Shown: piece after piece, positions 1 to 24,400 of the stretch | Numbering within the stretch: position 1 is the first letter of the stretch | How the letters are laid out: each line of letters starts with the position of its first letter | Assembly: GCF_000003605.2 (NCBI RefSeq) | Contig: NW_003141130.1 | Span: forward strand, 1-24,400 | Source: Saccoglossus kowalevskii | Lineage: Eukaryota > Hemichordata > Enteropneusta > Harrimaniidae | Reading direction: 5' to 3' | Length of the DNA stretch: 24,400 nt | Notes under the pieces: generated by a model | What the model was told of the DNA's origin: nothing | What the model saw: only the letters and a program-made list of their open reading frames with translations | Database searches by the model: none | Program-made: the position numbers and the translations under genes

Positions 1-64
1 TTCATCATCTCGTATTTATGTTATCTAGTCCCATCTTTACGTTATGTAGTCACGTATTTATGTT

Positions 65-911
65 ATAATCTCCCATCTTTATGTCACGCTGTCTCGTATT
101 TATCTGATGGAGTCCCATCTTTATGTCTTGCTGACTCGTATTTATGTTATGCAGTCCCATATTTATGTCATGCTGTCTCGTATTTATGTGATCCAGTCCC
201 ATCTTTATGTTATGTAGTCTCGTATTTATGTTATGTAGTCCCATCTTTATGTCATGCAGACTCGTATTTATGTTATGCAGTCCCATCTTTATGTCACACA
301 GTCTCGTATTTATGTGATTGAGTCCCATCTTTATGTCACATAGTCTCGTATTTATGTTTTGCAGTCCCATCTTTATGTCACATTGTCTCTTATTTATGTT
401 ATGCAGTCCCATCTTTATATCATGCAGTCTCGTATTTATGTTATCCAGTCCCATCTTTATGTTATGTAGTCTCGTATTTATGTTATGCAGTCCCATCTTT
501 ATGTCACGCAGCCTCGTATTTATGTTATGCAGTCCCATCTTTATGTCATGCAGTCTCGTATTTATGATATCCAGTCCCATCTTTATGTTATGTAGTCTCG
601 TATTTATGTTATGTAGACCAATCTTTATGTCACGCAGTCTCGTATTTATGTTATGCAGTCCCATCTTTATGTCATGCAGATTCGTATTTATGTTATGCAG
701 TCCCATCTTTATGTCATGCAGTCTCGTATTTATGTTATCCAGTCCCATCTTTATGTTATGTAGTCTCGTATTTATGTTATGCAGTCCCATCTTTATGTCT
801 TGCAGTATCGTATTTATGTTATGTAGTCCCATCTTTATGTCATGTAGTCTCGTATTTATGTTATGCAGTCCCATATTTATGTCTTGCTGACTCGTATTTA
901 TGTTATGCAGT
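65..911 (+). repeat. HOR module R, copy 1 (847 bp)
   Basis: Starts at ATAATCTCCC, a one-base variant of the usual ATAAACTCCC. It carries the module's ordered markers: TATCTGATG (about 110), TTTTGCAG (about 357), TATATCATG (about 415), CAGCCTCG (about 510) and GTAGACCAATC (613). It ends where a 20-bp monomer begins at 912. It is 84 bp (two dimers) longer than the 763-bp standard form; the extra dimers lie between GTAGACC and the end (299 bp here, 215 bp in copies at 12514 and 14024). Confidence 0.85.
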
Positions 912-1155
912 CCCATTTTATGTCATGTAGTGTCGTATTTATGTTATGCAGTCCCATCTTTATGTCTTGTAATCTCGTATTTATGTTATGTAGTCCCATC
1001 TTTATGTTATGTAGTCTCGTATTTATGTTATGCAGTCCCAACCCTATGTCTTGCAGTCTCGTATTTATGTTATGCAGTCCCATCTTTATGTCATGTAGTC
1101 TCGTATTTATGTTATCTAGTCCCATCTTTACGTTATGTAGTCTCGTATTTATGTT

Positions 1156-1743
1156 ATAAACTCCCATCTTTATGTCACGCTTTCTCGTATTTATCTGATG
1201 CAGTCCCATCTTTATGTCTTGCTGACTCGTATTTATGTTATGCAGTCCCATATTTATGTCATGCTGTCTCGTATTTATGTGATCCATTCCCATCTTTATG
1301 TTATGTAGTCTCGTATTTATGTTATGTAGTCCCATCTTTAAGTCATGCAGACTCGTATTTATGTTATGCAGTCCCATCTTTATGTCACACAGTCTCGTAT
1401 TTATGTGATGGAGTCCCATCTTTATGTCACATAGTCTCGTATTTATGTTTTGCAGTCCCATCTTTATGTCACATAGTCTCGTATTTATGTTATGCAGTCC
1501 CATCTTTATGTCATGCAGTCTCGTATTTATGTTATCCAGTCCCATCTTTATGTTATGTAGACTCGTATTTATGTTATGTCGTCCCATCTTTATGTCACGC
1601 AGTCGCGTATTTATGTTATGCAGTCCCATGTTTATGTCATGCAGATTCGTATTTATGTGATGCAGTCCCATCTTTATGTCATGTAGTCTCGTATTTATGT
1701 TATCTAGTCCCATCTTTACGTTATGTAGTCTCGTATTTATGTT
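1156..1743 (+). repeat. HOR module R, copy 2 (truncated, 588 bp)
   Basis: Starts at ATAAACTCCC and follows the module through the TTTTGCAG marker (about 1447). It then crosses back to the lead-in of the next module (CAGTCGCG near 1600, TTATCTAGTC near 1700). Spacing to the next start is exactly 588 bp, which is 14 dimers, so the truncation kept the 42-bp register. Confidence 0.85.
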
Positions 1744-2506
1744 ATAAACTCCCATCTTTATGTCACGCTGTCTCGTATTTATCTGATGCAGTTCCATCTT
1801 TATGTCTTGCTGACTCGTATTTATGTTATGCAGTCCCATATTTATGTCATGCTGTCTCGTATTTATGTGATCCAGTCCCATCTTTATGTTATGTAGTCTC
1901 GTATTTATGTTATGTAGTCCCATCTTTATGTCACGCAGACTCGTATTTATGTTATGCAGTCCCATCTTTATGTCACACAGTCTCGTATTTATGTGATGGA
2001 GTCCCATCTTTATGTCACATAGTCTCGTATTTATGTTTTGCAGTCCCATCGTTATGTCACATAGTCTCTTATTTATGTTATGCAGTCCCATCTTTATATC
2101 ATGCAGTCTCGTATTTATGTTATCCAGTCCCATCTTTATGTTATGTAGTCTCGTATTTATGTTATGCAGTCCCATCTTTATGTCACGCAGCCTCGTATTT
2201 ATGTTATGCAGTCCCATCTTTATGTCATGCAGTCTCGTATTTATGTTATCCAGTCCCATCTTTATGTTATGTAGTCTCGTATTTATGTTATGCAGTCCCA
2301 TCTTTATGTCACGCAGTCTCGTATTTATGTTATGCAGTCCCATCTTTATGTCATGCAGATTCGTATTTATGTTATGCAGTCCCATCTTTATGTCATGCAG
2401 TCTCGTATTTATGTTATCCAGTCCCATCTTTATGTTATGTAGTCTCGTATTTATGTTATGCAGTCCCATCTTTATGTCTTGCTGACTCGTATTTATGTTA
2501 TGCAGT
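1744..2506 (+). repeat. HOR module R, copy 3 (763 bp, intact terminal monomer)
   Basis: Full-length 763-bp module with TTTTGCAG (about 2036), TATATCATG (about 2095) and CAGCCTCG (about 2188). The GTAGACCAATC marker is replaced by the ordinary GCAGTCCCATC. At the position where other copies have the 20-bp monomer (2507) this copy has a normal 21-bp CCCATCTTTATG monomer, so it may predate that deletion or have been converted back. Confidence 0.83.
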
Positions 2507-2936
2507 CCCATCTTTATGTCATGTAGTCATGTATTTATGTTATGCAGTCCCATCTTTATGTCTTTCTGACTCGTATTTATGTTATGCAGTCCCATCTTGG
2601 TGTCATGTAGTCTCGTATTTATGTTATGCTGTCCCAACTTAATGTCTTGCTGACTCGTATTTATGTTATGGAGTCCCATCTTCATGTCATGTAGTCTCGT
2701 ATTTATGTTATGCAGTCCCATCTTTTTGTCTTGTAGTCTCGTATTTATGTTAGGCAGTCCCATCTTTATGTCACGCTGTCTCGGATTTATGTTATGGAGT
2801 CCCATATTTATGTCATGCAGTCTCATATTTATGTTATGCAGTCCCATCTTTATGTCACACAGCTCTTATTAATGTTATGCAGTCTCATCTTTATGTCATG
2901 TAGTCTCGTATTTATGTTATACAGTCCCATCTTTAT
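2507..2936. repeat. 42-bp repeats leading into the first degenerate cassette
   Basis: Ordinary dimers carrying rarer variants: CATCTTGGTGTC (2593), CTTAATGTC (2637), CATCTTTTTGTC (about 2720) and TTAGGCAG (about 2750). The same variants in the same order recur from about 6256 to 6637, at an offset of 3700 bp, so the two stretches are duplicates. No other feature is seen. Confidence 0.8.
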
Positions 2937-3157
2937 GCTGTATTGGAGTGCTGTTATGTAGTTCTGTCGCTTTGTTGTGTGGTTCTACCCCTGTGTTATG
3001 CAGACTTACATTTATGTTATGCAGTTGTGTATGTTACGCAGTCCCATCTGTATGTTATGCAGTCTCGTACTTATGACATGCAATCTCGTATTCATGTTAT
3101 GCAGTCCCATCTTTATGTCATGCAGTCTCGTATTTATGTTATGTATTAATTAATTTA
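2937..3157 (+). repeat. Degenerate cassette D plus AT junction, copy 1
   Basis: Begins GCTGTATTGGAGTGCTG and reaches the ATTA junction at 3145, exactly 208 bp later. Its first ~110 bp are the most diverged DNA in the window, yet they can still be cut into 17- to 21-bp pieces ending in CAGAC, CAGTT or CAGTC, so they are decayed satellite monomers rather than foreign DNA. The remainder is near-consensus repeat. The junction here is ATTAATTAATTTA (3145-3157). A 68-codon frame opens from a TTG at 2943 and stops inside the junction; it recurs in all five copies only because the cassette is duplicated. Confidence 0.85.
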
Positions 3158-3670
3158 TGTATTTATGTTATGCAGGTCCATCTTTATGTCATGTAGTCTC
3201 CTATTTATGCTATGCAGTCCCGTCTTTATGTCATGCAGTCGTGTTTTTATGTTATGACAGTCTCCTATTTATGTTATGCAGTCCCATCTTTATGCCATGC
3301 AGACTCGTATTTATGTTATGCTCTCCCATCTTTATATCACGCAGTCTCGTATTTATGTTATGGAGTCCCATATTTATGTCATGCAGTCTCCTATTTATGT
3401 TATGGAGTCCCATCTTTATGTCTTGCAATCTCGTATTTATGTTAGGCAGTCCCATCTTTATGTCACGCAGTCTCGTATTTATGTTATGGAGTCCCATATT
3501 TATGTCATGCAGTCTCATATTTATGTTATGCAGTCCCATCTTTATGTCTTGCTGACTCGTATTTATGTTATGCAGTCCCATCTTTATGTCACACAGCTCT
3601 TATTTATGTTATGCAGTCCCATCTTTATGTCATGTAGTCTCGTATTTATGTTATACAGTCCCATCTTTAT
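3158..3670. repeat. 42-bp repeats between cassettes D1 and D2
   Basis: Contains CAGGTCCATC just after the junction, GTCGTGTTTTTATG (about 3239) and a small irregular monomer GTTATGACAG (about 3251). It also has a CTCTCCCATC monomer at 3321. The part from about 3265 is duplicated 4476 bp downstream (7741 onward), with the same private variants. Confidence 0.8.
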
Positions 3671-3891
3671 GCTGTATTGGAGTGCTGTTATGTAGTTCTG
3701 TCGCTTTGTTGTGCGGTTCTACCCCTGTGTTATGCAGACTTATATTTATGTTATGCAGTTGTGTATGTTACGCAGTCCCATCTGTATGTTATGCAGTCTC
3801 GTACTTATGACATGCAATCTCGTATTCATGTTATGCAGTCCCATCTTTATGTCATGCAGTCTCGTATTTATGTTATGTATTAATTAATTTA
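3671..3891 (+). repeat. Degenerate cassette D plus AT junction, copy 2
   Basis: Begins GCTGTATTGG, with the ATTA junction at 3879, again 208 bp later. It starts 734 bp after copy 1. It differs from copy 1 by point changes such as TTGTGCGG for TTGTGTGG and CTTATATT for CTTACATT; copies 2-5 share TTGTGCGG. Confidence 0.85.
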
Positions 3892-4033
3892 TGTATTTAT
3901 GTTATGCAGGTCCATCTTTATGTCATGTAGTCTCCTATTTATGCTATGCAGTCCCGTCTTTATGACATGCAGTCGTGTTTTTATGTTATGCAGTCCCATC
4001 TTTATGTCATGCTGTCTCGTATTTATGTTATGT

Positions 4034-4046
4034 ATTAATTAATTTA
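4034..4046 (+). repeat. AT-rich junction without cassette
   Basis: ATTAATTAATTTA, followed by TGTATTTACGTTATG and then a TCACATC monomer. It lies 155 bp after the junction of cassette copy 2, with a shortened repeat segment between them. The following block (CAAACAG at about 4121, GACTGG at about 4630) is colinear with the block after 6846 at an offset of 2812 bp. Confidence 0.85.
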
Positions 4047-4870
4047 TGTATTTACGTTATGCAATCACATCTTTATGTCATGTAGTCTCCTATTTATGTT
4101 ATGCAGTCCCATCTTTATGTCAAACAGTCTCGTATCTATGTTATGCAGTCCCATCTTTATGTCACATAGTCTCGTATTTATGTTATGCAGTCCCATCTTT
4201 ATGTCACATAGTCTCGTATTTATGTTATGCAGTCCAACTTTATGTCATGCAGTCTCGTAATTATGTTATGTAGTCCCATCTTTTTGTTATGTAGTCTCGT
4301 ATTTATGTTATGTCGTCCCATCTTTATGTCACGCAGTCTCGTATTTATGTTATGCAGTCCCATCTTTATGTCATGCTGATTCGTATTTATGTTATGCAGT
4401 CTCATCTTTATGTCACGCAGTCTCGTATTTATGTTATGGAGTCCCATCTTAACGTCATGCAGTCTCATATTTATGTTATGGAGTCCCATCTTTATGTCTT
4501 GCTGACTCGTATTTATGTTATGCTGTCCCATCTGTATGTCACGCAGTCTCGTATTTATGTTATGGAGTCCCATATTTATGTCACACAGTCTCATATTTAT
4601 GTTATGGAGTCCCATCTTTATGTCTTGCTGACTGGTATTTATGTTATGCAGTCCAATCTTTATGCCATGCAGACTCGTATTTATGTTATGCTCTCCCATC
4701 TTTATGTCACGCAGTCTCGTATTTATGTTATGGAGTCCCATCTTTATGTCTTTCTGACTCGTATTTATGTTATGCAGTCCCATCTTTATGTCACACAGCT
4801 CTATTATGTCATGCAGTCCCATCTTTATGTCATGTAGTCTCGTATTTATGTTATACAGTCCCATCTTTAT
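4047..4870. repeat. 42-bp repeats between junction 4034 and cassette D3
   Basis: Ordinary dimers with a run of CACATAG variants near 4165-4210 and TTATGGAG/TATGTCACGC variants from 4435. There are short monomers at about 4232 (GTCCAACTTTATG) and about 4795 (CAGCTCTATTATG). The block to about 4770 is colinear with 6846-7582. Confidence 0.8.
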
Positions 4871-5095
4871 GCTGTATTGGAGTGCTGTTATGTAGTTCTG
4901 TCGCTTTGTTGTGCGGTTCTACCCCTGTGTTATGCAGACTTATATTTATGTTATGCAGTTGTGTATGTTACGCAGTCCCATCTGTATGTTATGCAGTCTC
5001 GTACTTATGACATGCAATCTCGTATTAATGTTACACACTCCCATCTTTATGTCATGCAGTCTCGTATTTATGTTATGTATTAATTAATTAATTTA
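4871..5095 (+). repeat. Degenerate cassette D plus AT junction, copy 3
   Basis: Begins GCTGTATTGG with the junction at 5079, 208 bp later. Private changes include TATTAATGTTACACACTCC near 5022-5041. The junction has three ATTA units (ATTAATTAATTAATTTA) rather than the two of copies 1 and 2, a typical tetranucleotide slippage difference. Confidence 0.85.
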
Positions 5096-6637
5096 TGTAT
5101 TTATGTTATGCAGGTCCATCTTTATGTCATGTAGTCTCGTATTTATGTTATGCAGTCTCATCTTTATGTCTTGCTGATTCGTATTTATGTTATGCAGTCC
5201 CATTTTTATGTCACGTAGTCTTGTATTTATGTTATGCAGTCCCATCTTTATGTCTTGAAATCTCGTCTTTATGTTATGCAGTCACATCTTTATGTCATGT
5301 AATCTCGTATTTATGTTATGCAGTCCCATCTTTATGTCTTGCAATCTCGTATTTTTGTTATGCACTCCCATCTTTATGTTATGTAGTCTCGTATTTATGT
5401 TATGCAGTACCAACCCTATGTCTTGCAGTATCGTATTTATGTTATGTAGTCCCATCTTTATGTCATGTAGTCTCGTATTTATGTTATGCAGTCCCATCTT
5501 TATGTCTTGCTGACTCGTATTTATGTTATGCAGTCCCATCTTTATGTCTTGTAATCTCGTATTTATGTTATGCAGTCCCATCTTTATGTTATGTAGTCTC
5601 GTATTTATGTTATGCAGTCCCAACCCTATGTCTTGCAGTCTCGTATTTATGTTATGCAGTCCCATCTTTATGTCATGTAGTCTCGTATTTATGTTATGCA
5701 GTCTCATCTTTATGTCTTGCTGACTCGTATTTATGTGATGCAGTCCCATTTTATGTCATGTAGTGTCGTATTTATGTTATGCAGTCCCATCTTTATGTCA
5801 TGTAATCTCGTATTTATGTTATGCAGTCCCATCTTTATGACTTGCAATCTCGTATATATGTTATGCAGTCCCATCTTTTATGTCTTGCAATCTCGTATTT
5901 ATGTTATGCAGTCACATCTTTATGTCTTGCAGTCTCGTAATTATGTTATGCAGTCCCATCTTTATGTCATGTAGTCTCGTATTTATGTTATGCAGTCCCA
6001 TCTTTATGTCACGCAGTCTCGTATTTATGTTATGCAGTCCCATCTTTATGTCATGCAGATTCGTATTTATGTTATGCAGTCCCATCTTTATGTCATGCAG
6101 TCTCGTATTTATGTTATCCAGTCCCATCTTTATGTTATGTAGTCTCGTATTTATGTTATGCAGTCCAATCTTTATGTCTTGCTGACTCGTATTTATGTTA
6201 TGAAGTCCCATCTTTATGTCAGGTAGTCTTGTATTTATGTTATGCAGTCCCATCTTTATGTCTTGCTGACTCGTATTTATGTTATGCAGTCCCATCTTGG
6301 TGTCATGTAGTCTCGTATTTATGTTATGCTGTCCCAACTTAATGTCTTGCTGACTCGTATTTATGTTATGGAGTCCCATCTTCATGTCATGTAGTCTCGT
6401 ATTTATGTTATGCAGTCCCATCTTTTTGTCTTGTAGTCTCGTATTTATGTTCGGCAGTCCCATCTTTATGTCACGCAGTCTCGTATTTATGTTATGGAGT
6501 CCCATATTTATGTCATGCAGTCTCATATTTATGTTATGCAGTCCCATCTTTATGTCACACAGTCTCTTATTTATGTTATGCAGTCTCATCTTTATGTCAT
6601 GTAGTCTCGTATTTATGTTATACAGTCCCATCTTTAT
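5096..6637. repeat. 42-bp repeats between cassettes D3 and D4
   Basis: Dimers rich in CTTGCAATC, CTTGTAATC and CTTGCTGAC variants. Two monomers read CCAACCCTATG (about 5410 and 5620), a marker that recurs in the segments downstream of R modules. It holds one 20-bp monomer at 5745 and one 22-bp monomer near 5872 (CATCTTTTATG). From about 6256 it copies 2556-2936. No gene is seen. Confidence 0.82.
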
Positions 6638-6858
6638 GCTGTATTGGAGTGCTGTTATGTAGTTCTGTCGCTTTGTTGTGCGGTTCTACCCCTGTGTTAT
6701 GCAGACTTATATTTATGTTATGCAGTTGTGTATGTTACGCAGTCCCATCTGTATGTTATGCAGTCTCGTACTTATGACATGCAATCTCGTATTCATGTTA
6801 CGCAGTCCCATCTTTATGTCATGCAGTCTCGTATTTATGTTATGTATTAATTGATTTA
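6638..6858 (+). repeat. Degenerate cassette D plus AT junction, copy 4
   Basis: Begins GCTGTATTGG with the junction at 6846, 208 bp later. The junction is mutated to ATTAATTGATTTA and runs into GAATTTACG. Downstream sequence matches what follows junction 4034 rather than what follows copy 1, so the AT junction is where two source blocks are joined. Confidence 0.85.
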
Positions 6859-8146
6859 TGAATTTACGTTATGCAATCACATCTTTATGTCATGTAGTCT
6901 CCTATTTATGTTATGCAGTCCCATCTTTATATCAAACAGTCTCGTATTTATGTTATGCAGTCCCATCTTTATGTCACATAGTCTCGTATTTATGTTATGC
7001 AGTCCCATCTTTATGTCACTTAGTCTCGTATTTATGTTATGCAGTCCATCTTTATGTCATGCAGTCTCGTATTTATGTTATGTAGTCCCATCTTTATGTT
7101 ATGTAGTCTCGTATTTATGTTATGTCGTCCCATCTTTATGTCACGCAGTCTCGTATTTATGTTATGCAGTCCCATCTTTATGTCATGCAGATTCGTATTT
7201 ATGTTATGCAGTCTCATCTTTATGTCACGCAGTCTCGTATTTATGTTATGGAGTCCCATCTTTACGTCATGCAGTCTCATATTTATGTTATGGAGTCCCA
7301 TCTTTATGTCTTGCTGACTCGTATTTATGTTATGCTGTCCAATCTGTATGTCACGCAGTCTCGTATTTATGTTATGGAGTCCCATATTTATGTCACGCAG
7401 TCTCATATTTATGTTATGGAGTCCCATCTTTATGTCTTGCTGACTGGTATTTATTTTATGCAGTCCCATCTTTATGCCATGCAGACTCGTATTTATGTTA
7501 TGCTGTCCCATCTTTATGTCACGCAGTCTCGTATTTATGTTATGGAATCCCATCTTTATGTCTTGCTGACTCGTATTTATGTTATGCTGTCCCATCTTTA
7601 TGTCACGCAGTCTCGTATTTATGTTATGCTGTCCAATCTGTATGTCACGCAGTCTCGTATTTATGTTATGGAGTCCCATCTTTATGTCACGCAGTCTCAT
7701 ATTTATGTTATGGAGTCCCATCTTTATGTCTTGCTGACTCGTATTTATGTTATGCAGTCCCATCTTTATGCCATGCAGACTCGTATTTATGTTATGCTCT
7801 CCCATCTTTATATCACGCAGTCTCGTATTTATGTTATGGAGTCCCATATTTATGTCATGCAGTCTCCTATTTATGTTATGGAGTCCCATCTTTATGTCTT
7901 GCAATCTCGTATTTATGTTAGGCAGTCCCATCTTTATGTCACGCAGTCTCGTATTTATGTTATGGCGTCCCATATTTATGTCATGCAGTCTCATATTTAT
8001 GTTATGCAGTCCCATCTTTATGTCTTGCTGACTCGTATTTATGTTATGCCGTCCCATCTTTATGTCACACAGCTCTTATTTATGTTATGCAGTCCCATCT
8101 TTATGTCATGTAGTCTCGTATTTATGTTATACAGTCCCATCTTTAT
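6859..8146. repeat. 42-bp repeats between cassettes D4 and D5 (mosaic)
   Basis: The first part, to about 7582, is colinear with 4047-4770 (offset 2812). The last part, from about 7741, is colinear with 3265-3670 (offset 4476), including the CTCTCCCATC monomer at 7797. Between them is a run of TTATGCTG and CACGCAG dimers. A 20-bp monomer occurs near 7043 (GCAGTCCATC). Confidence 0.82.
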
Positions 8147-8371
8147 GCAGTATTGGAGTGCTGTTATGTAGTTCTGTCGCTTTGTTGTGCGGTTCTACCC
8201 CTGTGTTATGCAGACTTATATGCATGTTATGCAGTTGTGTATGTTACGCAGTCCCATCTGTATGTTATGCAGTCTCGTACTTATGACATGCAATCTCGTA
8301 TTCATGTTACGCAGTCCCATCTTTATGTCATGCAGTCTCGTATTTATGTTATGTATTAATTAATTAATTTA
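8147..8371 (+). repeat. Degenerate cassette D plus AT junction, copy 5
   Basis: Begins GCAGTATTGG, one base different from the other copies, with a three-unit junction (ATTAATTAATTAATTTA) at 8355, 208 bp later. This is the last cassette D in the window; HORs downstream use only the longer AT junction. Confidence 0.85.
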
Positions 8372-8513
8372 TGTATTTATGTTATGCAGGTCCATCTTTA
8401 TGTCATGTAGTCTCTTATTTATGTTATGCAGTCCCGTCTTTATGTCATGCAGTCGTGTTTTTATGTTATGCAGTCCCATCTTTATGTCATGCCGTCTCGT
8501 ATTTATGTTATGT
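8372..8513. repeat. Short repeat link between two AT junctions
   Basis: Starts with the CAGGTCCATC and GTCGTGTTTTTATG variants, as after cassette copies 1 and 2, and ends GCCGTCTCG just before the next junction. It parallels 3892-4033, which also lies between two junctions (159 bp between junction starts here, 155 bp there, the 4-bp difference being one ATTA unit). Confidence 0.8.
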
Positions 8514-8538
8514 ATTAATTAATTAATTTATTTATTTA
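8514..8538 (+). repeat. 25-bp AT-rich junction heading HOR 1
   Basis: ATTAATTAATTAATTTA followed by two TTTA units, then CGTTATGCAGTCACATC. This 25-bp form occurs five times (8514, 9975, 11896, 17298, 19177). An R module starts 449 bp downstream, as it does for the junctions at 9975, 17298 and 19177. Confidence 0.88.
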
Positions 8539-8962
8539 CGTTATGCAGTCACATCTTTATGTCATGTAGTCTCCTATTTATGTTATGCAGTCCCATCTTT
8601 ATGTCAAACAGTCTCGTATTTATGTTATGAAGTCCCATCTTTATGTCACATAGTCTCGTATTTATGTTATGCAGTCCCATCTTTATGTCACATAGTCTCG
8701 TATTTATGTTATGCAGTCCCATCTTTATGGCATGCAGTCTCGTATTTATGTTATCCAGTCCCATCTTTATGTTATGTAGACTCGTATTTATGTTATGTCG
8801 TCCCATCTTTATGTCACGCAGTCTCGTATTTATGTTATGCAGTCCCATCTTTATGTCATGCATATTCGTATTTATGTGATGCAGTCCCATCTTTATGTCA
8901 TGTAGTCTCGTATTTATGTTATCCAGTCCCATCTTTACGTTATGCAGTCTCGTATTTATGTT

Positions 8963-9725
8963 ATAAACTCCCATCTTTATGTCACGCTGTCTCGTATTTA
9001 TCTGATGCAGTCCCATCTTTATGTCTTGCTGACTCGTATTTATGTTATGCAGTCCCATATTTATGTCATGCTGTCTCGTATTTATGTGATCCAGTCCCAT
9101 CTTTATGTTATGTAGTCTCGTATTTATGTTATGTAGTCCCATCTTTATGTCATGCAGACTCGTATTTATGTTATGCAGTCTCATCTTTATGTCACACAGT
9201 CTCGTATTTATGTGATGGAGTCCCATCTTTATGTCACATAGTCTGGTATTTATGTTATGCAGTCCCATCTTTATGTCACATAGTCTCTTATTTATGTTAT
9301 GTAGTCCCATCTTTATGTCATGCAGTCTCGTATTTATGTTATGCAATCCCATCTTTATGTTATGTAGTCTCGTATTTATGTTATGCAGTCCCATCTTTAT
9401 GTCACGCAGCCTCATATTTATGTTATGCAGTCCCATCTTTATGTCATGCAGTCTCGTATTTATGTTATCCAGTCCCATCTTTATGTTATGTAGTCTCGTA
9501 TTTATGTTGTGTAGACCAATCTTTATGTCACGCAGTCTCGTATTTATGTTATGCAGTCCCATCTTTATGTCATGCAGATTCGTATTTATGTTATGCAGTC
9601 CCATCTTTATGTCATGCAGTCTCGTATTTATGTTATCCAGTAACATCTTTGTGTTATGTAGTCTCGTATTTATTTTATGCAGTCCCATCTTTATGTCTTG
9701 CTGACTCGTATTTATGTTATGCAGT
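8963..9725 (+). repeat. HOR module R, copy 4 (763 bp, intact terminal monomer)
   Basis: ATAAACTCCC start and standard 763-bp length. The TTTTGCAG marker reads TTATGCAG here, and TATATCATG is absent. CAGCCTCA (about 9409) and GTAGACCAATC (about 9511) are present. A 21-bp rather than 20-bp monomer stands at the end (9726), as in copy 3. The next module start is 1461 bp away. Confidence 0.85.
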
Positions 9726-9974
9726 CCCATCTTTATGTCATGTAGTCTCGTATTTATGATATGCAGTCCCATCTTTATGTCTTGCTGACTCGTATTTATG
9801 TTATGCAGTCCCATCTTTATGTCATGTAGTCTCGTATTTATGTTATGTAGTCCCATCTTTATGTCATGTAGTTTCGTATTTATGTTATGCAGTTCCATCT
9901 TTATGTCTTGCTGACTCGTAATTATGTTATGCAGTCCCATCTTTATGTCATGCTGTCTCGTATTTATGTTATGT

Positions 9975-9999
9975 ATTAATTAATTAATTTATTTATTTA
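9975..9999 (+). repeat. 25-bp AT-rich junction heading HOR 2
   Basis: Same 25-bp sequence as at 8514, exactly 1461 bp downstream of it. The R-module start is again 449 bp further on. Confidence 0.88.
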
Positions 10000-10423
10000 C
10001 GTTATGCAGTCACATCTTTATGTCATGTAGTCTCCTATTTATGTTATGCAGTCCCATCTTTATGTCAAACAGTCTCGTAGTTATGTTATGCAGTCCCATC
10101 TTTATGTCACATAGTCTCGTATTTATGTTATGCTGACCCATCTTTATGTCACATAGTCTCGTATTTATGTTATGCAGTCCCATCTTTATGTCATGCAGTC
10201 TCGTATTTATGTTATCCAGTCCCATCTTTATGTTATGTAGACTCGTATTTATGTTATGTCGTCCCATCTTTATGTCACGCAGTCGCGTATTTATGTTATG
10301 CAGTCCCATCTTTATGTCATGCAGATTCGTATTTATGTGATGCAGTCCCATCTTTATGTCATGTAGTCTCGTATTTATGTTATCTAGTCCCATCTTTACG
10401 TTATGTAGTCTCGTATTTATGTT

Positions 10424-11895: not shown

Positions 11896-11920
11896 ATTAA
11901 TTAATTAATTTATTTATTTA
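11896..11920 (+). repeat. 25-bp AT-rich junction heading HOR 3
   Basis: Same 25-bp sequence, 1921 bp after the previous one. Its downstream R module begins 365 bp later instead of 449, a loss of exactly two dimers. No further junction follows until 17298. Confidence 0.88.
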
Positions 11921-14405: not shown

Positions 14406-15867
14406 CCCATTTTATGTCATGTAGTGTCGTATTTATGTTATGCAGTCCCATCTTTATGTCATGTAATCTCGTATTTATGTTATGCAGTCCCATCTTTATG
14501 TCTTGCAATCTCGTATTTATGTTATGCAGTCCCATCTTTATGTTATGTAGTCTCGTATTTATGTTATGCAGTTCCAACCCTATGTCTTGCAGTCTCGTAT
14601 TTATGTTATGCAGTCCCATCTTTATGTCATGTAGTCTCGTATTTATGATATGAACTCCCATCTTTATGTCTTGCTGACTCGTATTTATGTTATGCAGTCC
14701 CATCTTTATGTCATGTAGTCTCGTATTTATGTTATGCAGTCCCATCTTTATGTCATGTAGTTTCGTATTTATGTTATGCAGTTCCATTTTTATGTCTTGC
14801 TGACTCGTAATTATGTTATGCAGTCCCATCTTTATGTCATGCTGTCTCGTATTTATGTTATGCAGTCCCATCTTTAGGTCTTGCTGACTCGTATTTATGT
14901 TATGCAGTCCCATCTTTATGTCATGTAGTTTAGTATTTATGTTATGCAGTTCCATCTTTATGTCTTTCTGACCGGTATTTATGTTATGCAGTCCCATCTT
15001 TGTGTCATGTAGTCTCGTATTTACGTTATGCAGTCCCGTCTTTATGTCATGTAGTCTCGTATTTATGTTATGCAGTCTCATCTTTATGTCTTGCTGATTC
15101 GTATTTATGTTATGCAGTCCCATTTTTATGTCACGTAGTCTTGTATTTATGTTATGCAGTCCCATCTTTATGTCTTGCTGACTCGTATTTATGTTATGCC
15201 GTCCCATCTTTATGTCATGTAGTCTCGTATTTATGTTATGCAGTCCCAACTTTATGTCTTGCTGACTCGTATTTATGTTATGCAGTCCCATCTTTGTGTC
15301 ATGTAGTCTCGTATTTATGTTATGCAGTCCCATCTTTATGTCTTGCTGACTCGTATTTATGTTATGCAGTCCCATCTTTATGTCATGTAGTTTAGTATGT
15401 ATGTTATGCAGTTCCATCTTTATGTCTTGCTGACCGGAATTTATGTTATGCAGTCCCATCTTTGTGTCATGTAGTCTCGTATTTACGTTATGCAGTCCCG
15501 TCTTTATGTCATGTAGTCTCGTATTTATGTTATGCAGTCCCATCTTTATGTCATGTAGTCTCGTATTTATGTTATGCAGTCCCATCTTTATGTCATGTAG
15601 TTTCGTATTTATGTTATGCAGTTCCATCTTTATGTCTTGCTGACTCGTATTTATGTTATCCAGTCCCATCTTTATGTTATGTAGACTCGTATTTATGTTA
15701 TGTCGTCCCATCTTTATGTCACGCAGTCGCGTATTTATGTTATGCAGTCCCATCTTTATGTCATGCAGATTTGTATTTATGTGATGCAGTCCCATCTTTA
15801 TGTCATGTAGTCTCGTATTTATGTTATCTAGTCCCATCTTTACGTTATGTAGTCTCGTATTTATGTT
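14406..15867. repeat. Post-module repeats containing a 462-bp sub-repeat
   Basis: After the usual post-module dimers, including CCAACCCTATG (about 14574), the sequence enters a block marked by GTTTAGTAT (about 14928 and 15388), TGACCGG (14969 and 15431) and CATCTTTGTGTC. The two TGACCGG sites are 462 bp apart, eleven dimers. The same pair recurs 7200 bp downstream. The block then joins to the lead-in of R copy 8 (CAGTCGCG about 15724). Confidence 0.8.
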
Positions 15868-16588
15868 ATAAACTCCCATCTTTATGTCACGCTGTCTCGT
15901 ATTTATCTGATGCAGTCCCATCTTTATGTCTTGCTGACTCGTATTTATGTTATGCAGTCCCATATTTATGTCATGCTGTCTCGTATTTATGTGATCCAGT
16001 CCCATCTTTATGTTATGTAGTCTCGTATTTATGTTATGTAGTCCCATCTTTATGTCATGCAGACTCGTATTTATGTTATGCAGTCCCATCTTTATGTCAC
16101 ACAGTCTCGTATTTATGTGATGGAGTCCCATCTTTATGTCACATAGTCTCGTATTTATGTTTTGCAGTCCCATCTTTATGTCACATAGTCTCTTATTTAT
16201 GTTATGCAGTCCTATCTTTATATCATGCAGTCTCGTATTTATGTTATCCAGTCCCATCTTTATGTTATGTAGTCTCGTATTTATGTTATGCAGTCCCATC
16301 TTTATGTCATGCAGTCTCGTATTTATGTTACCCAGTCCCATCTTTATGTTATGTAGTCTCGTATTTATGTTATGTAGACCAATCTTTATGTCACGCAGTC
16401 TCGTATTTATGTTATGCAGTCCCATCTTTATGTCATGCAGATTCGTATTTATGTTATGCAGTCCCATCTTTATGTCATACAGTCTCGTATTTATGTTATC
16501 CAGTCCCATCTTTATGTTATGTAGTCTCGTATTTATGTTATGCAGTCCCATCTTTATGTCTTGCTGACTCGTATTTATGTTATGCAGT
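15868..16588 (+). repeat. HOR module R, copy 8 (721 bp)
   Basis: Lacks one dimer relative to the 763-bp form: the CAGCCTCG dimer is missing after about 16285. The terminal 20-bp monomer begins TCCATTTTATG, a C-to-T change shared only with copy 9. It lies at the start of the 1879-bp HOR. Confidence 0.86.
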
Positions 16589-16839
16589 TCCATTTTATGT
16601 CATGTAGTGTCGTATTTATGTTATGCAGTCCCATCTTTATGTCTTGTAATCTCGTATTTATGTTATGCAGTCCCATCTTTATGTTATGTAGTCTCGTATT
16701 TATGTTGTGCAGTACCAACCCTATGTCTTGCAGTCTCGTATTTATGTTATGCAGTCCCATCTTTATGTCATGTAGTCTCGTATTTATGTTATGCAGTCCC
16801 ATCTTTATGTCTTGCTGACTCGTATTTATGTTATGCAGT
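16589..16839 (+). repeat. Segment between paired 20-bp monomers (251 bp)
   Basis: 20-bp monomers at 16589 and 16840, six dimers minus 1 apart. The extra dimer relative to the 209-bp form carries the CCAACCCTATG variant (about 16717) after TTGTGCAG. Confidence 0.83.
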
Positions 16840-17297
16840 CCCATTTTATGTCATGTAGTGTCGTATTTATGTTATGCAGTCCCATCTTTATGTCATGTAA
16901 TCTCGTATTTATGTTATGCAGTCCCATCTTTATGTCTTGCAATCTCGTATTTATGTTATGCAGTCCCATCTTTATGTTATGTAGTCTCGTATTTATGTTA
17001 TGCAGTTCCAACCCTATGTCTTGCAGTCTCGTATTTATGTTATGCAGTCCCATCTTTATGTCATGTAGTCTCGTATTTATGATATGCAGTCCCATCTTTA
17101 TGTCTTGCTGACTCGTATTTATGTTATGCAGTCCCAGCTTTATGTCATGTAGTCTCGTATTTATGTTATGCAGTCCCATCTTTATGTCATGTAGTTTCGT
17201 ATTTATGTTATGCAGTTCCATCTTTATGTCTTGCTGACTCGTAATTATGTTATGCAGTCCCATCTTTATGTCATGCTGTCTCGTATTTATGTTATGT

Positions 17298-17322
17298 ATT
17301 AATTAATTAATTTATTTATTTA
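17298..17322 (+). repeat. 25-bp AT-rich junction heading HOR 4
   Basis: Same 25-bp sequence, reappearing after 5402 bp without one. The next junction is exactly 1879 bp downstream and the R module starts 449 bp downstream. Confidence 0.88.
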
Positions 17323-17746
17323 CGTTATGCAGTCACATCTTTATGTCATGTAGTCTCCTATTTATGTTATGCAGTCCCATCTTTATGTCAAACAGTCTCG
17401 TATTTATGTTATGCAGTCCCATCTTTATGTCACATAGTCTCGTATTTATGTTATGCTGACCCATCTTTATGTCACATAGTCTCGTATTTATGTTATCCAG
17501 TCCCATCTTTATGTCATGCAGTCTCGTATTTATGTTATCCAGTCCCATCTTTATGTTATGTAGACTCGTATTTATGTTATGTCGTCCCATCTTTATGTCA
17601 CGCAGTCGCGTATTTATGTTATGCAGTCCCATCTTTATGTTCTGCAGATTCGTATTTATGTGATGCAGTCCCATCTTTATGTCATGTAGTCTCGTATTTA
17701 TGTTATCTAGTCCCATCTTTACGTTATGTAGTCTCGTATTTATGTT

Positions 17747-18467
17747 ATAAACTCCCATCTTTATGTCACGCTGTCTCGTATTTATCTGATGCAGTCCCAT
17801 CTTTATGTCTTGCTGACTCGTATTTATGTTATGCAGTCCCATATTTATGTCATGCTGTCTCGTATTTATGTGATCCAGTCCCATCTTTATGTTATGTAGT
17901 CTCGTATTTATGTTATGTAGTCCCATCTTTATGTCATGCAGACTCGTATTTATGTTATGCAGTCCCATCTTTATGTCACACAGTCTCGTATTTATGTGAT
18001 GGAGTCCCATCTTTATGTCACATAGTCTCGTATTTATGTTTTGCAGTCCCATCTTTATGTCACATAGTCTCTTATTTATGTTATGCAGTCCCATCTTTAT
18101 ATCATGCAGTCTCGTATTTATGTTATCCAGTCACATCTTTATGTCACGCAGCCTCGTATTTATGTTATGCAGTCCCATCTTTATGTCATGCAGTCTCGTA
18201 TTTATGTTATCCAGTCCCATCTTTATGTTATGTAGTCTCGTATTTATGTTATGTAGACCAATCTTTATGTCACGCAGTCTCGTATTTATGTTATGCAGTC
18301 CCATCTTTATGTCATGCAGATTCGTATTTATGTTATGCAGTCCCATCTTTATGTCATGCAGTCTCGTATTTATGTTATCCAGTCCCATCTTTATGTTATG
18401 TAGTCTCGTATTTATGTTATGCAGTCCCATCTTTATGTCTTGCTGACTCGTATTTATGTTATGCAGT
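17747..18467 (+). repeat. HOR module R, copy 9 (721 bp)
   Basis: Also 721 bp, but the missing dimer is different from that in copy 8. Here TTATCCAGTCACATC (about 18122) runs directly into the CAGCCTCG dimer, so the preceding TTATGTAG dimer was lost. The terminal 20-bp monomer shares the TCCATTTTATG change with copy 8. Confidence 0.86.
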
Positions 18468-18718
18468 TCCATTTTATGTCATGTAGTGTCGTATTTATGT
18501 TATGCAGTCCCATCTTTATGTCTTGTAATCTCGTATTTATGTTATGCAGTCCCATCTTTATGTTATGTAGTCTCGTATTTATGTTGTGCAGTACCAACCC
18601 TATGTCTTGCAGTCTCGTATTTATGTTATGCAGTCCCATCTTTATGTCATGTAGTCTCGTATTTATGTTATGCAGTCCCATCTTTATGTCTTGCTGACTC
18701 GTATTTATGTTATGCAGT
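18468..18718 (+). repeat. Segment between paired 20-bp monomers (251 bp)
   Basis: Duplicate of 16589-16839 at an offset of 1879 bp, with the CCAACCCTATG monomer (about 18596). The second 20-bp monomer (18719) reads CCAATTTTATG, a private change. Confidence 0.83.
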
Positions 18719-19176
18719 CCAATTTTATGTCATGTAGTGTCGTATTTATGTTATGCAGTCCCATCTTTATGTCATGTAATCTCGTATTTATGTTATGCAG
18801 TCCCATCTTTATGTCTTGCAATCTCGTATTTATGTTATGCAGTCCCATCTTTATGTTATGTAGTCTCGTATTTATGTTATGCAGTTCCAACCCTATGTCT
18901 TGCAGTCTCGTATTTATGTTATGCAGTCCCATCTTTATGTCATGTAGTCTCGTATTTATGATATGCAGTCCCATCTTTATGTCTTGCTGACTCGTATTTA
19001 TGTTATGCAGTCCCAGCTTTATGTCATGTAGTCTCGTATTTATGTTATGCAGTCCCATCTTTATGTCATGTAGTTTCGTATTTATGTTATGCAGTTCCAT
19101 CTTTATGTCTTGCTGACTCGTAATTATGTTATGCAGTCCCATCTTTATGTCATGCTGTCTCGTATTTATGTTATGT

Positions 19177-19201
19177 ATTAATTAATTAATTTATTTATTT
19201 A
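19177..19201 (+). repeat. 25-bp AT-rich junction heading HOR 5
   Basis: Last AT junction in the window, 1879 bp after the previous one. The R module follows 449 bp later. The 5.2 kb to the window end contain no further junction. Confidence 0.88.
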
Positions 19202-19625
19202 CGTTATGCAGTCACATCTTTATGTCATGTAGTCTCCTATTTATGTTATGCAGTCCCATCTTTATGTCAAACAGTCTCGTATTTATGTTATGCAGTCCCA
19301 TCTTTATGTCACATAGTCTCGTATTTATGTTATGCTGACCCATCTTTATGTCACATAGTCTCGTATTTATGTTATCCAGTCCCATCTTTATGTCATGCAG
19401 TCTCGTATTTATGTTACCCAGTCCCATCTTTATGTTATGTAGACTCGTATTTATGTTATGTCGTCCCATCTTTATGTCACGCAGTCGCGTATTTATGTTA
19501 TGCAGTCCCATCTTTATGTCATGCAGATTCGTATTTATGTGATGCAGTCCCATCTTTATGTCATGTAGTCTCGTATTTATGTTATCTAGTCCCATCTTTA
19601 CGTTATGTAGTCTCGTATTTATGTT

Positions 19626-20388
19626 ATAAACTCCCATCTTTATGTCACGCTGTCTCGTATTTATCTGATGCAGTCCCATCTTTATGTCTTGCTGACTCGT
19701 ATTTATGTTATGCAGTCCCATATTTATGTCATGCTGTCTCGTATTTATGTGATCCAGTCCCATCTTTATGTTATGTAGTCTCGTATTTATGTTATGTAGT
19801 CCCATCTTTAAGTCATGCAGACTCGTATTTATGTTATGCAGTCCCATCTTTATGTCACACAGTCTCGTATTTATGTGATGGAGTCCCATCTTTATGTCAC
19901 ATAGTCTCGTATTTATGTTTTGCAGTCCCATCTTTATGTCACATAGTCTCTTATTTATGTTATGCAGTCCCATCTTTATATCATGCAGTCTCGTATTTAT
20001 GTTATCCAGTCCCATCTTTATGTTATGTAGTCTCGTCTTTATGTTATGCAGTCCCATCTTTATGTCACGCAGCCTCGTATTTATGTTATGCAGTCCCATC
20101 TTTATGTCATGCAGTCTCGTATTTATGTTATCCAGTCCCATCTTTATGTTATGTAGTCTCGTATTTATGTTATGTAGACCAATCTTTATGTCACGCAGTC
20201 TCGTATTTATGTTATGCAGTCCCATCTTTATGTCATGCAGATTCGTATTTATGTTATACAGTCCCATCTTTATGTCATGCAGTCTCGTATTTATGTTATC
20301 CAATCCCATCTTTATGTTATGTAGTCTCGTATTTATGTTATGCAGTCCCATCTTTATGTCTTGCTGACTCGTATTTATGTTATGCTGT
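19626..20388 (+). repeat. HOR module R, copy 10 (763 bp)
   Basis: Standard length with all markers, including CAGCCTCG (about 20070) and GTAGACC (about 20173). Small private changes include TCGTCTTTATG near 20036 and TTATACAG near 20255. It ends at the 20-bp monomer at 20389. Confidence 0.87.
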
Positions 20389-20597
20389 CCCATTTTATGT
20401 CATGTAGTGTCGTATTTATGTTATGCAGTCCCATCTTTATGTCTTGTAATCTCGTATTTATGTTATGCAGTCCCATCTTTATGTTATGTAGTCTCGTATT
20501 TATGTTGTGCAGTCCCATCTTTATGTCATGTAGTCTCGTATTTATGTTATGCAGTCCCATCTTTATGTCTTGCTGACTCGTATTTATGTTATGCAGT
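20389..20597 (+). repeat. Segment between paired 20-bp monomers (209 bp)
   Basis: 20-bp monomers at 20389 and 20598, the same five-dimer form as at 12729 and 24040. Confidence 0.83.
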
Positions 20598-20942
20598 CCC
20601 ATTTTATGTCATGTAGTGTCGTATTTATGTTATGCAGTCCCATCTTTATGTCATGTAATCTCGTATTTATGTTATGCAGTCCCATCTTTATGTCTTGCAA
20701 TCTCGTATTTATGTTATGCAGTCCCATCTTTATGTTATGTAGTCTCGTATTTATGTTATGCAGTTCCAACCCTATGTCTTGCAGTCTCGTATTTATGTTA
20801 TGCAGTCCCATCTTTATGTCATGTAGTCTCGTATTTATGATATGAAGTCCCATCTTTATGTCTTGCTGACTCGTATTTATGTTATGCAGTCCCATCTTTA
20901 TGTCATGTAGTCTCGTATTTATGTTATGCAGTCCCATCTTTA

Positions 20943-21624
20943 TGTCATGTAGTCTCGTATTTATGTTATGCAGTCCCATCTTTATGTCTTGCTGACTCGT
21001 ATTTATGTTATGCAGTCCCATCTTTATGTCACGCAGTCGCGTATTTATGTTATGCAGTCCCATCTGTATGTTCTGCAGATTCGTATTTATGTGATGCAGT
21101 CCCATCTTTATGTCATGTAGTCTCGTATTTATGTTATCTAGTCCCATCTTTACGTTATGTAGTCTCGTATTTATGTTATAAACTCCCATCTTTATGTCAC
21201 GCTGTCTCGTATTTATCTGATGCAGTCCCATCTTTATGTCTTGCTGACTCGTATTTATGTTATGCAGTCCCATATTTATGTCATGCTGTCTCGTATTTAT
21301 GTGATCCAGTCCCATCTTTATGTTATGTAGTCTCGTATTTATGTTATGTAGTCCCATCTTTATGTCATGCAGACTCGTATTTATGTTATGCAGTCCCATC
21401 TTTATGTCACACAGTCTCGTATTTATGTGATGGAGTCCCATCTTTATGTCACATAGTCTCGTATTTATGTTTTGCAGTCCCATCTTTATGTCACATAGTC
21501 TCTTATTTATGTTATGCAGTCCCATCTTTATATCATGCAGTCTCGTATTTATGTTATCCAGTCCCATCTTTATGTTATGTAGTCTCGTATTTATGTTATG
21601 CAGTCCCATCTTTATGTCACGCAG
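20943..21624 (+). repeat. Recent duplication, copy A (partner at 23043-23724)
   Basis: By line-by-line reading this stretch matches 23043-23724 except for one substitution near 23689 and a 1-bp deletion near 23724. Both carry the private variant CATCTGTATGTTCTGCAG (21061 and 23161). The offset is exactly 2100 bp, which is 50 dimers. Confidence 0.88.
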
Positions 21625-21940
21625 CCTCGTATTTATGTTATGCAGTCCCATCTTTATGTCATGCAGTCTCGTATTTATGTTATCCAGTCCCATCTTTATG
21701 TTATGTAGTCTCATATTTATGTTATGTAGACCAATCTTTATGTCACGCAGTCTCGTATTTATGTTATGCAGTCCCATCTTTATGTCATGCAGATTCGTAT
21801 TTATGTTATGCAGTCCCATCTTTATGTCATGCAGTCTCGTATTTATGTTATCCAGTCCCATCTTTATGTTATGTAGTCTCGTATTTATGTTATGCAGTCC
21901 CATCTTTATGTCTTGCTGACTCGTATTTATGTTATGCCGT
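21178..21940 (+). repeat. HOR module R, copy 11 (763 bp, intact terminal monomer)
   Basis: Standard length and markers. The 20-bp monomer expected at 21941 is replaced by a 21-bp monomer beginning CGCATC. The sequence then passes into the CTTTGTGTC/GACCGG block rather than the usual post-module segment. Confidence 0.85.
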
Positions 21941-22731
21941 CGCATCTTTATGTCATGTAGTCTCGTATTTATGTTATGCAGTCCCATCTTTATGTCTTGC
22001 TGACTCGTATTTATGTTATGCAGTCCCATCTTTGTGTCATGTAGTCTCGTATTTATGTTATGCAGTCCCATCTTTATGTCTTGCTGACTCGTATTTATGT
22101 TATGCAGTCCCATCTTTATGTCATGTAGTTTAGTATTTATGTTATGCAGTTCCATCTTTATGTCTTGCTGACCGGTATTTATGTTATGCAGTCCCATCTT
22201 TGTGTCATGTAGTCTCGTATTTACGTTATGCAGTCCCGTCTTTATGTCATGTAGTCTCGTATTTATGTTATGCAGTCTCATCTTTATGTCTTGCTGATTC
22301 GTATTTATGTTATGCAGTCCCAATTTTATGTCACGTAGTCTTGTATTTATGTTATGCAGTCCCATCTTTATGTCTTGCTGACTCGTATTTATGTTATGCC
22401 GTCCCATCTTTATGTCATGCAGTCTCGTATTTATGTTATGCAGTCCCAACTTTATGTCTTGCTGACTCGTATTTATGTTATGCAGTCCCATCTTTGTGTC
22501 ATGTAGTCTCGTATTTATGTTATGCAGTCCCATCTTTATGTCTTGCTGACTCGTATTTATGTTATGCAGTCCCATCTTTATGTCATGTAGTTTAGTATTT
22601 ATGTTATGCAGTTCCATCTTTATGTCTTGCTGACCGGTATTTATGTTATGCAGTCCCATCTTTGTGTCATGTAGTCTCGTATTTATGTTATCTAGTCCCA
22701 TCTTTACGTTATGTAGTCTCGTATTTATGTT
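21941..22731. repeat. Second copy of the 462-bp sub-repeat block
   Basis: GACCGG sites at 22170 and 22632 are 462 bp apart, matching the 14970/15432 pair at a constant offset of 7200 bp. Shared private variants include GTTTAGTAT, CTTTGTGTC, CACGTAGTCTTG and CCCAACTTTATG. After the second GACCGG the block switches straight to the TTATCTAGTC lead-in of the next R module. Confidence 0.82.
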
Positions 22732-22993
22732 ATAAACTCCCATCTTTATGTCACGCTGTCTCGTATTTATCTGATGCAGTCCCATCTTTATGTCTTGCTG
22801 ACTCGTATTTATGTTATGCAGTCCCATATTTATGTCATGCTGTCTCGTATTTATGTGATCCAGTCCCATCTTTATGTTATGTAGTCTCTTATTTATGTTA
22901 TGTAGTCCCATCTTTATGTCATGCAGACTCGTATTTATGTTATGCAGTCCCATCTTTATGTCACACAGTCTCGTATTTATGTGATGGAGTCCC
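22732..22993 (+). repeat. HOR module R, copy 12 (truncated)
   Basis: Follows the module from ATAAACTCCC to GTGATGGAG. At 22994 it switches from the expected CCCATC...CACATAG monomer to CCCAACTTTATGTCTTGCTG, a variant of the 462-bp block (compare 22443). The next module start is 546 bp away, exactly 13 dimers. Confidence 0.85.
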
Positions 22994-23042
22994 AACTTTA
23001 TGTCTTGCTGACTCGTATTTATGTTATGCAGTCCCATCTTTG

Positions 23043-23724
23043 TGTCATGTAGTCTCGTATTTATGTTATGCAGTCCCATCTTTATGTCTTGCTGACTCGT
23101 ATTTATGTTATGCAGTCCCATCTTTATGTCACGCAGTCGCGTATTTATGTTATGCAGTCCCATCTGTATGTTCTGCAGATTCGTATTTATGTGATGCAGT
23201 CCCATCTTTATGTCATGTAGTCTCGTATTTATGTTATCTAGTCCCATCTTTACGTTATGTAGTCTCGTATTTATGTTATAAACTCCCATCTTTATGTCAC
23301 GCTGTCTCGTATTTATCTGATGCAGTCCCATCTTTATGTCTTGCTGACTCGTATTTATGTTATGCAGTCCCATATTTATGTCATGCTGTCTCGTATTTAT
23401 GTGATCCAGTCCCATCTTTATGTTATGTAGTCTCGTATTTATGTTATGTAGTCCCATCTTTATGTCATGCAGACTCGTATTTATGTTATGCAGTCCCATC
23501 TTTATGTCACACAGTCTCGTATTTATGTGATGGAGTCCCATCTTTATGTCACATAGTCTCGTATTTATGTTTTGCAGTCCCATCTTTATGTCACATAGTC
23601 TCTTATTTATGTTATGCAGTCCCATCTTTATATCATGCAGTCTCGTATTTATGTTATCCAGTCCCATCTTTATGTTATGTAGTCTCGTTTTTATGTTATG
23701 CAGTCCCATCTTTATGTCACGCAG
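23043..23724 (+). repeat. Recent duplication, copy B (partner at 20943-21624)
   Basis: Near-identical to copy A as described there. Beyond about 23724 the two copies stay homologous but shift by one base because of a deletion in the CAGCCTCG marker (here CAGCTCG). Confidence 0.88.
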
Positions 23725-24039
23725 CTCGTATTTATGTTATGCAGTCCCATCTTTATGTCATGCAGTCTCGTATTTATGTTATCCAGTCCCATCTTTATGT
23801 TATGTAGTCTCGTATTTATGTTATGTAGACCAATCTTTATGTCACGCAGTCTCGTATTTATGTTATGCAGTCCCATCTTTATGTCATGCAGATTCGTATT
23901 TATGTTATGCAGTCCCATCTTTATGTCATGCAGTCTCGTATTTATGTTACCCAATCCCATCTTTATGTTATGTAGTCTCGTATTTATGTTATGCAGTCCC
24001 ATCTTTATGTCTTGCTGACTCGTATTTATGTTATGCAGT
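23278..24039 (+). repeat. HOR module R, copy 13 (762 bp)
   Basis: One base short of standard because CAGCCTCG is CAGCTCG at about 23722. That deletion breaks the long minus-strand open frame near 23710. It keeps GTAGACC (about 23825) and ends at the 20-bp monomer at 24040. Confidence 0.87.
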
Positions 24040-24248
24040 CCCATTTTATGTCATGTAGTGTCGCATTTATGTTATGCAGTCCCATCTTTATGTCTTGTAA
24101 TCTCGTATTTATGTTATGCAGTCCCATCTTTATGTTATGTAGTCTCGTATTTATGTTGTGCAGTCCCATCTTTATGTCATGTAGTCTCGTATTTATGTTA
24201 TGCAGTCCCATCTTTATGTCTTGCTGACTCGTATTTATGTTATGCAGT
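24040..24248 (+). repeat. Segment between paired 20-bp monomers (209 bp)
   Basis: 20-bp monomers at 24040 and 24249. The order of variants matches 20389-20597, and the sequence after 24249 continues to match the sequence after 20598 until the window ends, so another HOR is entered but not completed. Confidence 0.83.
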
Positions 24249-24400
24249 CCCATTTTATGTCATGTAGTGTCGTATTTATGTTATGCAGTCCCATCTTTAT
24301 GTCATGTAATCTCGTATTTATGTTATGCAGTCCCATCTTTATGTCTTGCAATCTCGTATTTATGTTATGCAGTCCCATCTTTATGTTATGTAGTCTCGTA

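Follow-up and report, generated by a model that had tools for sequence, protein, structure and literature searches.

We analysed a stretch of 24,400 bp from the hemichordate Saccoglossus kowalevskii (hereafter the window), which is the entire contig NW_003141130.1 (C3209) of a 572-Mb assembly in 4,830 contigs, and here propose that it is related to a mobile-element family that bears the conserved terminus TATGGAACGCCGTNNCTGTCTTATGTG. The window is an interior portion of one tandem array, whose true extent is not measured by the 24.4 kb because the window takes up the whole contig. Tandem Repeats Finder (TRF) returned one row with a 42-bp unit (8..24400, 582 copies, 85% match), and the autocorrelation of the window peaked at 42 (0.818), 84, 126 and 168 as well as at 21 (0.688). 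Wrap-around decomposition gave 585 units with a mean identity to the consensus of 0.912 over all 585; removal of two partial end units left 583 full dimers for pair counts. Each dimer joins a monomer A (TCTCGTATTTATGTTATGCAG) to a monomer B (TCCCATCTTTATGTCATGCAG), and the identities between monomers were 0.880 for A-A and 0.830 for B-B versus 0.701 for A-B. Because like halves agree at 83-88% and unlike halves at 70%, the 42-bp dimer is real. These analyses confirmed the satellite array, the nested 21- and 42-bp levels and the lack of interruption claimed in the original prediction: the array fills the window in both TRF and unit decomposition, and a degenerate region near 2940-3260 is still repeat-derived. 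As in satellite DNA generally, the repeats run head to tail, without coding function, over a kilobase or more.

Above the dimer, the window is organised in kilobase-scale blocks. With blocks defined by 8-dimer windows at 96.5% identity or better, 130 high-identity blocks were detected, none appeared in any of 20 randomised dimer orders, and 561 of the 583 dimers fall within a block. Block identity reaches approximately 99%, and the longest block (62 dimers) pairs 15601-18193 with 17480-20072 at 98.9%. Adjacent dimers are as alike as dimers overall (0.855 and 0.855). Such recurring high-identity blocks are the signature of block duplication. The nearest block copies lie 462, 546, 588, 734, 1091, 1215, 1458-1554, 1679, 1840-1921 and 2100 bp apart, or further, and include the predicted 462-bp sub-blocks. 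For the predicted higher-order repeats (HORs) of 1461-2100 bp, the distances were right and the regularity was not: neither the autocorrelation nor the block distances, which range from 462 to more than 2,100 bp, revealed a constant higher-order period in the window, and a fixed HOR period was rejected. The window showed no fixed-length multimers in tandem and near identity as in alpha-type HORs. Since block spacing is irregular, we describe the pattern as a mosaic; the term 'HOR', as used for alpha satellite, overstates it. The R modules, marked by the rare 16-mer variant CTACCCCTGTGTTATG, had been predicted near 763 bp, a value that was not reproduced as such; successive R segments are spaced by 734, 1200, 1767 and 1509 bp. 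The features of the window are as follows.

8..24400, + strand: single unbroken tandem array, 42-bp dimer of two 21-bp monomers (TRF and decomposition)
2925..3060, + strand: R marker copy 1, rare variant at 2985, resembles the array edge on scaffold C888 (described below)
3146..3260, + strand: degenerate stretch of three dimers, mean 74% identity to the consensus, outside all blocks (dimer block scan)
3659..3794, + strand: R marker copy 2, variant at 3719
4859..4994, + strand: R marker copy 3, variant at 4919
6626..6761, + strand: R marker copy 4, variant at 6686
8135..8270, + strand: R marker copy 5, variant at 8195
8453..10576, + strand: example of block recurrence at 1461 bp, 8453-9115 with 9914-10576, 96.9% (dimer diagonal scan)
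15601..20072, + strand: the longest block pair, repeated at 1879 bp (dimer diagonal scan; 0 in 20 shuffles)
19401..22002, + strand: example of block recurrence at 1552 bp, 19401-20449 with 20953-22002, 97.8% (dimer diagonal scan)

The same repeat family occurs elsewhere in the genome (contigs are numbered C, loci L); these dispersed short arrays, and the mobile-element-like terminus linked to them, go beyond the original prediction. The 16-base core TTTATGTTATGCAGTC of the family matches the assembly exactly at 1,983 sites, including 271 in the window, and further arrays on C1526, C2702 and C3338 (contigs of 49.8, 32.5 and 29.0 kb) give it the several arrays and many genome copies of a satellite. 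From C1526, 10 kb and eight of its nine short loci were read, from C2702 6 kb and two loci, and from C3338 9 kb; all of this sequence is array throughout or nearly so. C3338 is nearest to the window by shared 84-mers (4,631 of 8,917), ahead of C1526 (1,566 of 9,917) and C2702 (230 of 5,917). Short arrays of approximately 0.4-3.2 kb lie on C3059, C1840, C1764 (where the array enters a gap), C316, C2722 and the end of C437, a list that is a lower bound with 6 of 37 candidates scored.

Non-repeat DNA common to the edges of short arrays comprises the 27-bp terminus TATGGAACGCCGTNNCTGTCTTATGTG. Intact or diverged, it stands at one edge of five of seven dispersed arrays, with 1-3 mismatches over 29 bases at L010, L011 and L013, five at L012 and nine at L034 on C888, where it is eroded; L014 lacks it, as does L015, of which only one edge is visible. 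Allowing up to three mismatches, genome-wide motif searches found 11 and, in a second search, 16 places (L055-L065 and L069-L073), and 0 with the reversed control. A larger shared element in the flanks of the dispersed arrays was considered and rejected, as masked comparison yielded, apart from the terminus, an internal module present in both L013 and L068 and dispersed repeats that two to four loci have in common. Scaffold gaps or contig ends start in or at the terminus-headed arrays of L034, L012, L060, L062, L070, L059 and L065, where long unassembled arrays may lie. Another dispersed repeat adjoins terminus-headed arrays at both L011 (approximately 5890-6138) and L060 (1169-1395), the two copies being 78% identical over 227 bases; its opening bases, GGAACGCCG, are identical to those of the terminus in its outer part, and it may represent a related element family. 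At L014 (C2722, 4539-5684 and 7910-8048), a 97% homogeneous 21-bp array adjoins a second, very degenerate 21-bp repeat resembling GTGCATTTACCATGTTATGTA, which recurs inverted about 2.5 kb away, with no terminus recognised there.

What lies directly inside the terminus is periodic. Autocorrelation at lag 21 was compared with mononucleotide shuffles over up to 250 bp inside the terminus at 14 of the 16 places, L065 offering only 55 bp and L070 an assembly gap. A 21-bp period was detected in 13 of these 14, in one of them weakly: p was at most 0.0025 at 12 places and 0.03 at L063, and lag 21 ranked first or second among lags 12-60 at 12. An upstream flank could be compared at 13 of these places and gave lag-21 matches of 0.21-0.35 as descriptive values. 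The repeats themselves differ. Six places carry a window-type repeat behind the terminus (L055-L058, L064 and L065), three of which (on C316, C1840 and C3059) are not independent support because the motif was derived from them. Nine others were found solely by way of the terminus and show no visible repeat of the window type, and the tenth, L070, is a gap. In total, at least three different repeat sequences follow the terminus. Of the nine places, L059-L062 represent a single subfamily in four copies, with an 84-bp tetramer of 21-mers starting TATATG; L071 has a homogeneous TTATATTCTGATCAAATGTTA array; L063, L072 and L073 have degenerate repeats; and L069 is a short element. Among hand-chosen units, the best cyclic identities were 14/21 between the window and L072, 16 for L072-L072b, 16 for F2b-L073 and 14 for F2c-F3. 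Judged from these alignments, shared descent of all 21-bp units is plausible, and what they demonstrably have in common is their period.

The window is tied to the terminus through C888, whose scaffold runs from the eroded terminus through array into a gap. Its edge matches the terminus of L067 at 35 of 41 positions, with 0 of 1,000 shuffles as good, and across other terminus copies 0 to 14 of 1,000 shuffles scored as well. Approximately 190 bp inside this terminus, C888 carries the variant CTACCCCTGTGTTATG, which has five occurrences in the window, where it marks the R modules, five in the 9-kb stretch of C3338 and none in the sequence read from C1526 and C2702. The 115 bp around it align in register between C888 and the window, including a shortened unit, and the five R modules are the top five window matches to the C888 edge (scores 101-111).

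Together, these analyses indicate that the satellite unit probably began as a subterminal 21-bp repeat of the mobile-element family with this terminus and was later amplified. The element would have borne a few 21-bp repeats inside its end, plausibly transposase-binding sites two helical turns apart. Transposition would then have spread short arrays, each subfamily homogenising its own unit, in keeping with the distinct repeats now seen behind the terminus. At some loci, unequal exchange would have built 42-bp dimers and long arrays from these repeats and carried edge variants inward, where they now mark kilobase-scale blocks; the dimers, blocks and shared marker are observed, and we infer transposase binding, the order of events and unequal exchange. 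The long arrays would by now be ordinary satellite DNA without coding function. More tentatively, the element may keep a strict 21-bp period (two helical turns) while its repeat sequence is replaced repeatedly, each version being homogenised per subfamily; it might then be a repeated source of 21-bp satellites that look unrelated, only that of the window having reached satellite scale.

With regard to the class of the carrier, the 123-bp locus L069, which has TATGGAACGC and GCGTTCCATA at its two ends and TA at both outer edges, looks like a complete element; its TA ends are compatible with a TA target duplication, as a single case. A search for further copies of the L069 element returned only L069. 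The internal module common to L013 and L068 points in opposite directions at the two loci with respect to the array; it has inverted arms and sits within the element headed by the terminus on C1219 (L068, 354-545), with one arm on C316 (L013, 5529-5614). Inverted 21-bp units occur at L011 and, by eye, at L067, and tandem repeats inside the ends, as in foldback or terminal inverted repeat (TIR) transposons, were found at 13 of 14 places, L063 weakly. The L069 ends, the reversed module and the inverted units fit a foldback-like DNA transposon, whereas a clean foldback model was dropped as inverted ends were seen once. A one-ended element (the 3' end of a LINE or SINE, or Helitron-like), with the repeats as its tail or interior and the far side cut off, is a possible though somewhat doubtful carrier; it would change the class only, not the origin, and is compatible with descent from the terminus-bearing family. 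Consistent with such a carrier, 15 of 17 oriented loci lacked a match to the inverted outer 11 bases and none held the inner part of the terminus inverted, many of these loci holding only 0.3-3 kb, or a gap, past the array; in addition, far ends vary between copies where visible. The inverted match at L060 was assigned to the neighbouring repeat, leaving only L069 with one in place. The paired ends of L069, the L013/L068 module and the inverted units of L011 and L067 are better explained by a foldback-like element. A 102-codon open reading frame (ORF) downstream of the terminus at L066 (C3044, 5018-5326, - strand) resembles, by eye, a fragment of a RecQ-type helicase.

Several observations weigh against an origin of the satellite within this element family. 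The window contains no terminus within three mismatches of its inner 20 bases, and because of this its descent from the element rests on the C888 link. There, the matches of the C888 edge to L010, L061 and L011 were weak (9, 14 and 1 of 1,000 shuffles as good), and the R modules were followed closely by other scores (window 97, C1526 97, C3059 93, C1840 92, C2702 88); since this gap is modest, the link is good, not final. L069 failed the lag-21 test over its 123 bp (p=0.13), L063 gives weak support because its lag-21 match is no lower in the upstream flank (0.35) than inside the terminus (0.34), and many pairs of repeat units are at chance-level identity. On the side of the element, a matching inverted end was present at L069 only (1 of 17 loci), L069 with its TA was the only place where a target-site duplication was indicated, and no transposase was found: no ORF at L066-L068 exceeds 170 codons, no genome-wide search for an autonomous copy having been made. 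The direction could also be the reverse, the element having captured a pre-existing satellite.

Accordingly, we weighed an ordinary satellite that arose from a 21-bp minisatellite, with mobile elements later capturing it or inserting beside it and the terminus being secondary. The terminus-free window would suit this history, as would C1526, C2702 and C3338, where the sequence read is array and where none of the 16 terminus places lies, in the absence of a contig-by-contig search; Helentrons that carry satellite-like repeats are known in oyster, according to PMC7492417. We regard it as unlikely: the repeats start directly inside the terminus, and because a single terminus stands at the head of further 21-bp repeats that are little alike in sequence, the 21-bp habit seems to be the element's and not the satellite's.

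A centromeric or pericentromeric satellite under selection for kinetochore or heterochromatin function appears more improbable still. Contigs of 24-50 kb with array in all sequence read and homogenised kilobase-scale blocks are centromere-like in style, but the core has only 1,983 copies in the assembly, a small number even though arrays enter gaps and contig ends. We assign a similarly low probability to the block mosaic being partly an assembly artefact, produced by collapse or misjoining of similar repeats; contigs and scaffolds do break within arrays, yet the neighbourhoods of the R marker and a 733/734-bp spacing recur in C3338. Lastly, a gene encoding a protein built of 7- or 14-residue repeats can be practically discounted: the frames that run stop-free for up to 1,050 codons in the window do so because the period is divisible by three, and although the synonymous share exceeded the uniform expectation in four of six frames (0.292 vs 0.175, 0.269 vs 0.206 and 0.301 vs 0.198, the last in a frame that contains stops, and slightly, 0.272 vs 0.238, in the fourth), frame-shifting length changes in 47 of 583 dimers and a non-synonymous share of about 70% or more of the changes in every frame make a protein-coding role unlikely.

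Searches beyond the assembly were mainly negative. A structured RNA was rejected, as the window had no Rfam match at gathering scores, and so was a prokaryotic, phage or plasmid origin: one 1,233-base stretch of the window had no match in phages or plasmids, and an exact 23-mer had none in prokaryote genomes or viral contigs. Six words of 16-21 bases from the satellite consensus were absent from the literature searched, a search whose scope did not include eukaryotic repeat libraries and which, within that scope, does not contradict the predicted undescribed satellite family; for six terminus words of 10-16 bases, the matches listed comprised single 10- or 11-base words only, in literature unrelated by title. 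Near the array at L010 (C3059, 7120-8423), an ORF ends in the 2A-like peptide GDVEENPGP, and a CARD domain (Pfam E 2.6e-9) lies about 900 bp beyond it in an immune-receptor-like layout. This combination of CARD and 2A-like peptide is reminiscent of NLR genes of marine invertebrates.

Short tandem repeats in element ends also characterise the TU elements of sea urchins. The XhoI/EcoRI 21-bp families of the chicken W chromosome and the avian 41-42-bp CNM repeat are kilobase-scale repeats on 21- or 42-bp units, and because these bird repeats are built likewise, in a comparison by description only, the hierarchy of kilobase blocks on a 21/42-bp unit has precedents. In the foldback transposon Tetris of Drosophila virilis, subterminal repeats became the TIR-220 satellite, according to the account in PMC4079207. 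As described there, Tetris resembles the present case in its tandem repeats near the element end, short arrays beside ends, a long satellite elsewhere and an autonomous copy that was not found; it differs in its unit of 220 bp (versus 21 bp here) and in its long inverted ends and 8-10 bp target duplications, which are not established for the Saccoglossus element. Unlike in Tetris as portrayed in that account, one terminus here heads several repeat sequences of one length. According to PMC4079207, the ends of Galileo, of the P superfamily, contain transposase sites in repeated form, a model for subterminal repeats as extra transposase-binding sites; in the present case no transposase was found. 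By analogy with Galileo and Tetris as presented in PMC4079207, we infer a similar course for the window. The Cg_HINE Helentrons of Crassostrea gigas carry satellite-like repeats and, in the description of PMC7492417, are likewise non-autonomous elements that disperse short satellite-like arrays, with related monomers in a classical satellite and an element group that has similar flanks and different monomers. Their units are mostly 140-180 bp as opposed to 21 bp, and the likeness is one of repeat arrangement, not of the Helentron hallmarks given there (3' palindrome, subterminal inverted repeats, microsatellite; PMC7492417). The 'mirage' minisatellites of amphioxus, exon-boundary duplications in the account of PMC3087553, were set aside with no sign of relation in a comparison by description only.

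A transposon-derived satellite is of a known kind, and the unusual part is one terminus heading differently sequenced repeats of a fixed 21 bp. The birth of a satellite is usually deduced from one end state, whereas this genome seems to hold a series, from a 123-bp element through degenerate short arrays and homogenised short arrays (with at least three repeat sequences) to arrays of tens of kilobases, with a 27-bp terminus as the common link. Should the spacing of 21 bp be conserved where the sequence is not, a constraint on helical phase, for instance from transposase binding, would be indicated, and a direct test of whether satellites are seeded by transposons would be at hand.

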